A DNA stretch of 64,000 nucleotides, taken from the NCBI RefSeq assembly GCF_008629685.1, contig NZ_VWSF01000010.1:124001-188000 (forward strand). Reading direction: 5' to 3'. Positions 55,036 to 59,181 of this stretch are shown one piece after another (position 1 is the stretch's first letter; each line of letters starts with the position of its first letter). The position numbers were made by a program, and so were the translations under genes. Below the pieces are notes generated by a model. That model was not told the origin of the DNA and made no database searches. It saw only the letters and a list, made by a program, of their open reading frames with translations. The stretch is from Adhaeribacter rhizoryzae (GTDB taxonomy: Bacteria; Bacteroidota; Bacteroidia; Cytophagales; Hymenobacteraceae).

Positions 55036-55905
55036 ATGAAACAGTTATTTCGCAACAGTTTAAGATTACTGTTACCCGTCCTCCTGCTTTTTACTTGGGT
55101 TGCAGCGACGACGATGATGATAACCCCGGTACTACCGAAGAGATTAAGCTGAAAAACAGCTCTACCTTGGGCCAATACCTGGTAGATAAAGATGGGCGCA
55201 CCCTATATTATTTCTCGAACGATTTTAACGGACAGAATAATTGTGTGGTCAACTGCGAAGCGCTCTGGCCCTACTTTAATGTAGATAATTTAACCGCCGA
55301 CCAACTGGGCACTGGCCTGGAACTAACCGATTTTGCCACCATTACGGCCGCCAACGGTAAAAAGCAGCTTACCTATAAAACCTGGCCGCTCTATTATTAT
55401 GCGCCGGCCGTAAATGGCGTAAATACCCTGGAAGCGCCCGGACAAACTACCGGAGAGGGTTTTGATGGTATTTGGTTTGTGGCCAAACCCAATTATTCTA
55501 TTATGCTGGTAAATGCCCAACTGGTGGGCCACGATGGTAAAACTATAAATCGGATTACACCGAGGCACCGGCAAAACCCTTTACTTTACCGATGGCATGG
55601 GTAAAACCTTATATGGTTTTAAAAACGATAAGTTCAATAAAAACAATTATACCAACCAAAATGCCGCCCACGATGCGGTATGGCCCATTTACGAAACCGA
55701 CCAGATTGTGGTACCTTCTACCCTCGATAAAAATAATTTTGGCAGTATTACCTTATTTGGCAAAAAGCAATTAACCTACAAAGGCTGGCCTTTATATTAT
55801 TTCGATCAGGATGGCAATACCAGGGGCGCTAACAAAGGCATTAGTTTCCCAAGAGCCGGGGTTTGGCCGGTAGTTAACAAAGATATTGCAGCAGCCCCGC
55901 AATAA
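55036..55905 (+). pseudogene. Secreted lipoprotein repeat protein, broken by three single-base shifts
   Basis: Two matching COG4315-like repeats. The first frame from ATG 55036 carries the signal peptide (MKQLFRNSLRLLLPVLLLF) but misses the lipobox by one base; the next frame (TTG at 55095) has LGCSDDDDD and the first repeat (TLGQYLVDKDGRTLYYFSND ... KKQLTYKTWPLYYYAP). The frame then changes twice near 55540-55565 before the second repeat (GKTLYGFKND ... KKQLTYKGWPLYYFDQDG). The three losses fit T-run near 55091-55096, A-run 55539-55542 and G-run 55564-55565. Restored, it would be a roughly 290-residue lipoprotein. Confidence 0.7.
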
Positions 55906-56132: not shown

Positions 56133-57083
56133 TTAAAACTGAATAAAGGTATGCGGCAGTTCTTTTTGAATCCGGTCTTTTTCGGTGGCCGATATAGGAT
56201 TGCCGGCCAGCAACAAAGTTCGTAAACGCTTCAGTTTTTTTAATTTAATTGGCAAGTTAGATATCTGATTGTGGCTTAAATCCAGGAGTTCCAGATTTTC
56301 GAGTTTTGTTAATTCGGCAGGTAATACTTTTAGCTGATTATTCCCCAGCAGCAAGGTTTGCAAAGATTTTGCCTGACCAAGCTGCCGGGGTAAAGCAGTT
56401 AGCTGGTTAAAATCTAAAGCCAACGTTTTTAAATGCGATAGTTTAAAAAGGCTGCCCGGCACCTGACGCAATTGGTTCTGCGATACCGCTAAATCCTTTA
56501 AGGCGGCGCTATGGCCTATTTCGGTTGGTAACATTTCTAAATGATTATAACTTAAATTCAGGGTTTCCAATGCATGCATCTGGGCTATTTGGGGCGCTAC
56601 CGCTCTTATTTTATTGTAATGGAGTTGCAAAACCCGCAACCGGCTTAGTTGTCCGAAACCGCGGGCAAATTCGGTCAATTGGTTGTGGCTAAAGTCGGCT
56701 TGTTCCAATTGCTGGAGGGTAAAAAATGAAGGTGGTAAATCCCGGATTTCGTTTTCGCTAAAATTTATTTCCCGCAAATACTGTAGCTTACCAATTTCGG
56801 GCGCAATGTCAGCTATTTTGTTTTTCATGGCATTCACAAACTCCAGCTTGGTTAATTGGCAAATATCTGGGGTGAAGCTATAATATTGTTGCTGCCGGAT
56901 ATTCAGGTGATAAACTTCTTCTTTGTGGGCTAAGGCTTCCTGTACCTGGTAAAAAGTTTTAGTTGGCGTAGACTCTATTGCTTGGGCATTAACAAGGTTT
57001 ATTATGCCGCCGGTTAAAATAAAAAGGCAGGCTACTAATTTCTGAATTAAACTAACCGGTATTTTGCGTATAATTATCTGCAT
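56133..57083 (-). CDS. Secreted leucine-rich repeat protein
   Basis: 316 residues. A signal-like N-terminus (LVACLFILTGGIINLVNA), then about nine to ten 23-residue LRR units such as LQYLREINFSENEIRDLPP and LENLELLDLSHNQISNLP. Extracellular or periplasmic solenoid; binding partner unknown. No catalytic domain. Confidence 0.87.
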   Translation of the reverse strand: MQIIIRKIPVSLIQKLVACLFILTGGIINLVNAQAIESTPTKTFYQVQEALAHKEEVYHLNIRQQQYYSFTPDICQLTKLEFVNAMKNKIADIAPEIGKLQYLREINFSENEIRDLPPSFFTLQQLEQADFSHNQLTEFARGFGQLSRLRVLQLHYNKIRAVAPQIAQMHALETLNLSYNHLEMLPTEIGHSAALKDLAVSQNQLRQVPGSLFKLSHLKTLALDFNQLTALPRQLGQAKSLQTLLLGNNQLKVLPAELTKLENLELLDLSHNQISNLPIKLKKLKRLRTLLLAGNPISATEKDRIQKELPHTFIQF

Positions 57084-57285: not shown

Positions 57286-58941
57286 TTAATTTTCGGCTCT
57301 GATAATTCTTGTTGAAATTTCCTGACCCGCTACTTTCAGGCGTACCAGGTAAATAATATCGTTGGCCGTGGTGCCAGGATTAAAGCTAAAAGTATGCTCA
57401 CCTTTTTTAAGCAGACCTTGGGCTAAAGTGGCAACTTTTAAACCTTTCATATTGTAAACTTCCAGCACCGCGTCGGCATCTGTGGGCATATTAACTTTTA
57501 CCTGGCTGTTGTTTACAAAGGGGTTCGGATAAGCAGTAAGGTTGGCTGATACCTGTGATTTTGGACCTTTACCATTTTTACCTAAAAACTGATTTCTGGC
57601 AAAAACAATGGTAGTGGCGGTGTTAAATACCACCTCATTACCAGCCGCATCTAGGGTTACAGTTGCATTGGCACTGCTGGCGTTTTGCAGCGAAATAAAA
57701 CCATATTTAAAATCGGGCGAGAAAGTAAGGCCGGTAGGTTCAGAACCCGCCGGGGTAGTCATAAATAATTCTACCTTCGGGTTTTCCGGGGTGTGGTCCG
57801 GCCGTATTACCCAAACATTGTCGTTTCCACCATCTTGTAAGGCCCATAAATTTCCTTCGCCGTCGAAAGTAAGGTTATCGATACCGGTATTCCAGTCTTC
57901 TTTTTGCGTCCCGCCGTTATAGGTAATTTCGTATTCCTGGCGAGTTACCCAGGCTTCAATTTCTGATACGGTAGCGCCATTATCTTTAAAGCGCCAGATA
58001 TCGCCGGTACCTTTGGTAGTAAAATACATTTTGCCATCGGGGCCAAATTCAATGTCTTCAGGGTTACGCCAGTTAGTACCAAGCGACCGGCCAATTACAT
58101 ACGTATTGTTGCGGTCGGCTTTGGTTGTGTTTGGCACCTGTACCCAGGTACCAGTAGTGGCGGTTTCACTATCACGCTTCAGCACGTAAAGTTTGCCTTC
58201 CGATAAATTACCTTCTTCATCGGCCACAAATTTGTAGACACCGTTAGAACCGCCGTCCTCGGCTTGATAAATGGTTCTGCGATCCTGACTAATGGCAATA
58301 TTTTCGTGGCTCATGCGGCCCATGGCCCACAGTTTATCGGGTTTGCCATCGCCGTCATAATCCATTATTTTACCCGATACCGGGTCAATTTCTACCTGCC
58401 AGCCTACATCCTCGTAACCGTCGCCATTTAAATCGGCGCGGGTAGTAGTTTCTTCGGAAGTAATAACGGTACCCCAGGGCGTAATACCCCCAGAACAGTT
58501 ACGGGTAGTTTGCACCAGCGGTGAAAAATCAACTTTTCGTACGGCATCTACTACCCAATTATTCTGAGCTTCATCCAGATGCAAATCCAGGATAGATACC
58601 CCACCCGGTGTATTTTCGTGGTTGATGGATAAATAGCCTTCTTTGCTGCTGCCATTTTTACCTACAAAGGCAGTAAAATCGTTGCCAATAGGCATTAACG
58701 AACCATCGGGGTAAGTTGTTAAGCGAGATTTGGCCAGCAATTGAAAGCTATGGGTTTCAAAAGGAATTACCGTGGTACTGGTTTGCCCGGTTGGTTGTAC
58801 CGAAATAAAACTACCAATTTTGTTTTTTGCAGGTACGCCGGCTTCGGCGTTCTTTTTTGTCTGGGCAACTGCCTGCTGGCTGCAAATAGCACCTGCCGTT
58901 ACCATCGCTGTTACAAACAGACCTTCGTAAAATTTGTTCAT
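57286..58941 (-). CDS. PhoX-like (DUF839) calcium-dependent phosphatase with type IX secretion tail
   Basis: 551 residues from the ATG at 58941 (MNKFYEGL); an upstream ATG at 58980 would add 13 residues and hide the signal peptide. The body has the DUF839 blades: EGYLSINHENTPGG, CSGGITPWGTVITSEETT, MSHENIAISQDRRTIYQAED and NTGIDNLTFDGEGNLWALQD. Calcium-binding-like DLNGDGYEDV and DYDGDGKPDK are present. The last 80 residues (LTAYPNPFVNNSQVKVNM ... IIYLVRLKVAG) are a type A T9SS sorting domain, so the protein is exported to the surface. Probably Pho-regulated: see the 11-bp repeats upstream. Confidence 0.87.
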   Translation of the reverse strand: MNKFYEGLFVTAMVTAGAICSQQAVAQTKKNAEAGVPAKNKIGSFISVQPTGQTSTTVIPFETHSFQLLAKSRLTTYPDGSLMPIGNDFTAFVGKNGSSKEGYLSINHENTPGGVSILDLHLDEAQNNWVVDAVRKVDFSPLVQTTRNCSGGITPWGTVITSEETTTRADLNGDGYEDVGWQVEIDPVSGKIMDYDGDGKPDKLWAMGRMSHENIAISQDRRTIYQAEDGGSNGVYKFVADEEGNLSEGKLYVLKRDSETATTGTWVQVPNTTKADRNNTYVIGRSLGTNWRNPEDIEFGPDGKMYFTTKGTGDIWRFKDNGATVSEIEAWVTRQEYEITYNGGTQKEDWNTGIDNLTFDGEGNLWALQDGGNDNVWVIRPDHTPENPKVELFMTTPAGSEPTGLTFSPDFKYGFISLQNASSANATVTLDAAGNEVVFNTATTIVFARNQFLGKNGKGPKSQVSANLTAYPNPFVNNSQVKVNMPTDADAVLEVYNMKGLKVATLAQGLLKKGEHTFSFNPGTTANDIIYLVRLKVAGQEISTRIIRAEN

Positions 58942-58996
58942 AGTTAATTTGGGTTTTGCATAAAATGATTCAACGCCCAAAACAACTAAGGGTACT

Positions 58997-59040
58997 TTAA
59001 CCTAAAGTTAGCCTAATATTATTCTATTGTTATTAAACCA
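58997..59040. promoter_or_regulatory. Four TTA(A/G/T) repeats at 11-bp spacing (PhoB-type box, PhoX side)
   Basis: TTAAC 58997, TTAGC 59008, TTATT 59019 and TTATT 59030, each 11 bases apart; TTAGC 59044 and TTAGT 59055 add a second pair. Direct repeats at 11 bp are the layout of OmpR/PhoB-type operators. Confidence 0.5.
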
Positions 59041-59086
59041 GAATTAGCCTAAAATTAGTTGGTTAAGAAATAACTTCTTTGGCTTA

Positions 59087-59124
59087 TTAACAAAAACTTA
59101 ACCTATCCTTAAAATTAAGCTAAC
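59087..59124. promoter_or_regulatory. Four (T/C)TAA(C/A) repeats at 11-bp spacing (PhoB-type box, peroxidase side)
   Basis: TTAAC 59087, TTAAC 59098, TTAAA 59109 and CTAAC 59120. The last ends 10 bases before TTTCTTTG (59135-59142), a fair match to the -7 box TAnnTTTG, and 57 bases before the peroxidase ATG. The position, at the place of a -33 element, is what a PhoB-type activator would use. Confidence 0.55.
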
Positions 59125-59181
59125 AACCCGCTACTTTCTTTGTAGAGCATCCTTCTTGTAACAACTTACTCTTTATACCAA

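Follow-up and report, generated by a model that had tools for sequence, protein, structure and literature searches.

The window analyzed here, a 64,000-nucleotide stretch of a contig of Adhaeribacter rhizoryzae, contains a phoX gene and the gene of a MauG-like di-haem enzyme, which lie divergently on either side of an intergenic region of 239–240 bp. TAA-centred half-sites recur in this region with a period of 11 bp. The features of the locus, as read in this analysis, are as follows.

56133..57083, minus strand: exported leucine-rich-repeat protein encoded after phoX, a conserved member of this gene neighbourhood
57286..58941, minus strand: phoX, PhoX-family alkaline phosphatase (PF05787, 1.1e-35) with a signal peptide
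58978..58985, minus strand: -7 element TTGTTTTG of phoX, 10 bp past the last half-site and facing phoX
58996..59033, minus strand: putative Pho-box-type operator of phoX, with half-sites ATAAC (59033-59029), ATAAT (59022-59018), CTAAC (59011-59007), and TTAAA (59000-58996)
59032..59058, minus strand: extra half-sites CTAAT, CTAAT, and TTAAT, 11 bp apart, which correspond to the second array of the original prediction
59087..59124, plus strand: putative Pho-box-type operator of the MauG-like gene, with half-sites TTAAC (59087), TTAAC (59098), TTAAA (59109), and CTAAC (59120), period 11 bp
59135..59142, plus strand: -7 element TTTCTTTG of the MauG-like gene, of the TAnnTTTG type, from comparison with pst promoters and the published -7 consensus (PMC9723704)
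59182..61176, plus strand: MauG/MbnH-like di-haem enzyme with an N-terminal imelysin/EfeO-fold domain (CCP_MauG, 9.6e-46; fold matches), starting at ATG 59182

The phoX start was placed at ATG 58941; the one given in the open-reading-frame list, TTG at 58980, was not adopted, as it would run into the -7 element. The PhoX domain of its product scored above the curated cut-off (124.2 vs. 24 bits), and the protein carries a T9SS type A C-terminal tail (TIGR04183, 2e-7). The order phoX-lrr was found in five genomes, and the order phoX-lrr-mauG in locus L170. Two overlapping reading frames at 55095-55905 seem to belong to a single secreted repeat lipoprotein and may be separated by a frameshift.

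The original prediction described ten TTA(A/G)C half-sites recurring every 11 bases. All ten coordinates exist and the 11-bp period is real, but only five of the sites (58997, 59008, 59044, 59087, and 59098) conform to TTA[AG]C, while the others read TTATT, TTATT, TTAGT, TTAAA, and CTAAC. The best four-site TTARC score of the intergenic region at period 11 was 18 of 20, which none of 500 shuffles reached; periods of 9, 10, and 12–14 were unremarkable, and the score at period 8 was reached by 2.8% of shuffles. As judged from the sequence, a better reading of the repeats is that phoX and the MauG-like gene have an operator each, the two pointing in divergent directions. Either operator consists of four half-sites NTAA[C/T/A] spaced 11 bp apart and followed after 10 bp by a Bacteroidota -7 element. 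The first two of the three arrays originally proposed are better read on the minus strand, mainly as the operator of phoX, which together with its -7 element spans 58978-59033; the extra half-sites at 59032-59058 are 3 bp out of register with this core operator. The operator of the MauG-like gene and its -7 element span 59087-59142 on the plus strand. TTTCTTTG had been taken for a -33 element, an assignment that was ruled out by its position 10 bp past the last plus-strand half-site, which fits instead the -7 element TAnnTTTG, located at -12 to -5 in Flavobacterium psychrophilum (PMC9723704). Transcription of the MauG-like gene would start near 59147 on the plus strand. On the phoX side, TTGTTTTG or TTATTTTG was present at the matching place in the loci of four relatives (L071-L074). 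Inspection of the phoX and MauG-like promoters by eye revealed no separate -33 element.

The layout had been ascribed to operators of the PhoB/OmpR type, a view supported by the match to pst promoters of relatives and of the same genome. A. rhizoryzae possesses a porin-pstS-pstC-pstA-pstB-phoU operon, before which the repeat was sought and found as TTAAC-N6-CTAAC-N10-TAGTTTTG; no more than two half-sites of this promoter are in register, and its score with the four-site matrix described below was 4.2. Clear 11-bp-spaced TAA half-sites were observed in most of the 14 porin-pst promoters of relatives examined, many of which also showed the exact register, the 10-bp gap, and the -7 element. The repeats, whose absence before the pst genes of relatives had been named as the result that would speak against the prediction, were thus found there: in many related genomes, three or four half-sites with equal register and gap precede the porin-pst operon, as in L106 (ATAAC-N6-TTAAC-N6-TTAAC-N6-GCAAT-N10-TACTTTTG). 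When a matrix was trained on the pst promoters of seven relatives, to which neither the window nor the rest of its genome contributed, the operator of the MauG-like gene was the top plus-strand match in the 64-kb window (18.2 bits; 0/300 shuffles). The phoX operator scored 13.4 bits with the same matrix, second on the minus strand of the window behind an unrelated match of 16.6, and again none of 300 shuffles scored as high. The phoX operator is conserved in four relatives, in which the plus-strand operator also keeps its layout and register. In all five orthologous divergent regions (the window and L071-L074; 57–67% identity among the haem-enzyme proteins), both directions scored higher than all 300 shuffles. 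Several half-sites are degenerate, and the pattern might be a chance periodicity of A+T-rich intergenic DNA; we give this explanation a practically negligible probability, as it is contradicted by the shuffles (0/500 and 0/300), by the conservation in five genomes, and by the sharp peak at a single period and gap described below. The region displays three characteristics of a Pho box: 11-bp tandem direct repeats; an array that stops some 10 bp short of the -7 element, in the place of a -35/-33 element; and a motif that also precedes pst and phosphatase genes, both in this genome and in related ones.

The strict motif, three TTARC at 11 bp, had no exact match in the genome, and it was therefore relaxed to TAA combined with the gap and the -7 element. 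The resulting 17-base layout pattern (TAA four times at 11 bp, a 10-bp gap, and T---TTTG) had six perfect matches in 6.5 Mb, two of which are the operators of phoX and the MauG-like gene, and it was much commoner than its reversed control in genus genomes. A pattern of two half-sites with three mismatches was uninformative (651 matches vs. 527 for the reversed control). One further perfect match precedes a TonB receptor, and matches with one mismatch precede a TonB receptor plus phosphodiesterase and a metallophosphatase. TonB-dependent receptors with a Pho-type operator were observed at G000:C14:101445 in the same genome and at L291, L294-L297, L313, and L314; those with the box are closely similar across genus genomes, making the receptor a candidate outer-membrane transporter of the phosphate regulon. 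The receptor on contig C14 is followed by a lipoprotein without a Pfam match. A second, more typical PhoX gene of this genome lies at G000:C14:63.5-64.9 kb (L037), and no clear Pho-type operator was seen by eye for it.

Three perfect matches of the A. rhizoryzae genome (G000:C5:8507-8561, G000:C1:730902-730956, and G000:C5:129714-129768) contain TTTAAT-like half-sites. Operators of this type, which occur at loci L290-L312 of the genus, also have the 11-bp period, the 10-bp gap, and the -7 element, and they precede a SulP-type transporter beside a CopR-like regulator, a TolC-like protein, and a small exported protein. They were dropped as Pho sites on account of these half-sites and neighbouring genes, and they seem to form a different OmpR-family regulon, one that is conserved across the genus. 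Because they share the geometry near a CopR-like regulator, geometry alone is not specific to PhoB. The arrays between phoX and the MauG-like gene might likewise be operators of a different OmpR-family regulator, of the CopR type (copper/heavy metal) or other, with both genes answering its signal, and the genome encodes six full-length OmpR/PhoB-type regulators. We consider this improbable, since the half-sites match those of the pst promoters and are found by the pst-trained matrix, since other Pho-type matches precede phosphoesterases, and since homologous operons of Flavobacterium are induced by Pi depletion, according to the expression data given in PMC8115612. As for control by a PhoB-type regulator, a PhoB-like regulator gene with an adjacent PhoR-like kinase gene at G000:C1:572-573.7 kb is likely the phoB-phoR pair of this genome, the PhoB candidate scoring below the NCBIfam equivalog cut-offs.

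The linkage of the two genes was analyzed in a sample of 80 haem-enzyme homologues from Bacteroidota and a few genomes of neighbouring phyla. A PhoX-family gene adjoins the MauG-like gene in 72 of the 80 loci, in most cases immediately upstream and in the same orientation; the divergent arrangement was confined in this sample to Adhaeribacter and close relatives. A grid scan over periods of 8–14 and gaps of 6–13 peaked sharply at period 11 and gap 10 in three promoter sets, among them the 59 phoX-first operons. Scores of at least 14 of 17 were reached by 40 of these 59 phoX-mauG operons vs. 2 of 110 other promoters of the same loci (P = 9e-17, indicative only since the sequences are related). 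Of the Flavobacterium operons, 13 of 14 reached 14. In a thinned set of 41 operons whose proteins are less than 60% identical, 26 reached a score of 14 and the peak of period and gap persisted. Thinning was done by protein identity, promoter identity being unsuitable, which probably reflects the similarity that gapped alignment lends to A+T-rich promoters. PstS promoters from the whole class also gave a grid peak at 11 and 10, albeit a weaker one. No operators were found before distant MauG-like homologues when their own upstream regions alone were scanned (L075-L084), because most of these genes lie inside the phoX operon, and scanning upstream of phoX instead recovered the operator signal. 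Very long PhoX-family proteins are encoded beside the MauG-like gene at L171:8764-13146, L161:9315-13796, and L226:90-3836, the first of which joins a phytase-like esterase domain to PhoX.

As the divergent promoters share 239–240 bp, one cluster of regulator molecules could serve a single gene; only phoX would then be phosphate-regulated. The plus-strand array would be either a relic or an upstream extension of the phoX operator, with constitutive expression of the MauG-like gene. This is very improbable in our judgement, because the plus-strand operator has a 10-bp gap and a -7 element of its own and keeps its register in four relatives, and because in other loci the MauG-like gene lies in the phoX operon. 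A phoX-mauG operon is described for all Flavobacterium genomes in PMC8812569, and the MauG-like protein of this operon is strongly induced on Pi depletion (PMC8115612, PMC8812569), with a log2 fold change of 9.58 listed in PMC8115612 for Fjoh_2477 of Flavobacterium johnsoniae. The proposal that the haem-enzyme gene belongs to the phosphate regulon is backed by this induction of the homologue and by the pst-like operators.

Considering all of the above, it is highly probable that the intergenic region comprises two divergent, activator-dependent phosphate-regulon promoters under PhoB-type control, and the haem enzyme is very probably part of the response to phosphate starvation. Its place in the phosphate regulon has good support and had in part been known already from the sister lineage Flavobacterium. 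We infer that PhoB binds these operators and that both genes are induced by low phosphate in A. rhizoryzae. Under phosphate starvation, the phosphorylated PhoB-type regulator would bind as two tandem dimers to each array of four half-sites. The bound regulator, with the array ending 10 bp before the -7 element, would take the place of a -33 element and would recruit the Bacteroidota housekeeping sigma factor to phoX and, on the opposite strand, to the MauG-like gene, so that PhoB~P would activate both divergent promoters.

MauG and BthA have a Tyr where cytochrome c peroxidases have an axial Met. The haem motifs C356/H360 and C505/H509 and residue Y592 of the enzyme encoded here were invariant in 40 homologues; Tyr592 aligns with the axial Met of cytochrome c peroxidases, and PDB titles naming Y294 and Y463 variants agree with a Tyr in MauG and BthA. 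The label "peroxidase", under which the protein had first been described, therefore gives way to MauG/MbnH-like on account of the conserved Tyr592, and as judged by this residue the haem enzyme is not a classic peroxidase. Fold comparison gave Z scores of 22.7 to MbnH-like 6e1c, 18.7 to MauG, and 15.9 to BthA, with matches to peroxidases as well. The NCBIfam equivalog cut-offs for MauG and MbnH were missed (189 vs. 443.85 and 204.9 vs. 362.85 bits, respectively). The likeness to MauG, MbnH, and BthA thus comprises the two CxxCH haems, the Tyr at the axial-ligand position, and the fold, whereas the extra N-terminal domain is particular to the protein described here. This domain (residues 34-307) has the EfeO/imelysin fold, with Z of about 21–22 to EfeO, EfeM, Algp7, and an imelysin-like protein, and the imelysin/EfeO (Peptidase_M75) domain was also matched by profile. 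Its presumed metal motif, placed by eye, is G141-x-Q143-x-x-E146 (GxQxxE vs. GxHxxE), in which G141 and Q143 are conserved. This fusion of an EfeO-like domain with a haem enzyme is reminiscent of EfeO and EfeB, which form a pair in iron uptake.

The haem enzyme may serve the PhoX phosphatase. PhoX-family enzymes use iron (PMC5454538). PMC8812569 reports that PhoX of Flavobacterium showed no activity when Pseudomonas produced it by itself, and proposes that this PhoX may depend on a cofactor which the MauG-like protein makes. More speculatively, we hypothesize that PhoX, produced alongside the MauG-like/imelysin protein, is matured by it or receives a cofactor from it; the MauG-like/imelysin protein might modify PhoX, handle iron for it, or remove peroxide. 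The shared control and the near-constant linkage strengthen the published idea that PhoX of Bacteroidota needs its MauG-like neighbour, and such a need could explain the inactivity seen in Pseudomonas (PMC8812569). A broader and rather doubtful extension would be that a Bacteroidota-wide Pho box (four NTAAY at 11 bp, 10 bp, TAnnTTTG) maps phosphate regulons and that the co-controlled MauG-like/EfeO-fold protein is a dedicated PhoX maturation factor, installing a protein-derived cofactor or supplying metal. Bacteroidota are major mineralisers of organic phosphorus. The operator consensus offers a testable handle on phosphate regulons across the phylum, and the link of the MauG-like/EfeO-fold protein to PhoX across the phylum is the more interesting part.

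No description of a Bacteroidota operator consensus was found in the open-licence PubMed Central papers searched. In Flavobacterium, phoX and the MauG-like gene (Fjoh_2477) also lie together, in one operon instead of divergently; an operator sequence for this operon was not found in the passages of PMC8115612 and PMC8812569 searched. Riemerella anatipestifer PhoP is likewise a PhoB/OmpR-type regulator of Bacteroidota, with TTTAACA as its most conserved nucleotides, and the passages of PMC9603813 on it report the motif for hundreds of genes and tie it to virulence; those passages do not describe an 11-bp tandem array, pst genes, or a Pi regulon. In one class of PhoB promoters, 11-bp repeats are bound head to tail, with some 10 bp between the end of the repeats and the -10 element (PMC4415409, PMC1906773). 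The operators described here resemble this E. coli pho box in the 11-bp head-to-tail repeats, the distance of about 10 bp to the promoter element, and the array in the place of the -35 element; they differ from it in the half-site (NTAAC/T, not CTGTCAT), the -7 element TAnnTTTG, and the usual number of four half-sites. The Pho box of cyanobacterial SphR, CTTAACCT (8 bp plus a 3-bp linker), has a near-identical core, TTAAC, and likewise repeats every 11 bp (PMC1906773). It comprises at least three repeats and belongs to a different phylum, whereas the 10-bp gap to a Bacteroidota-type -7 element is specific to the operators described here.
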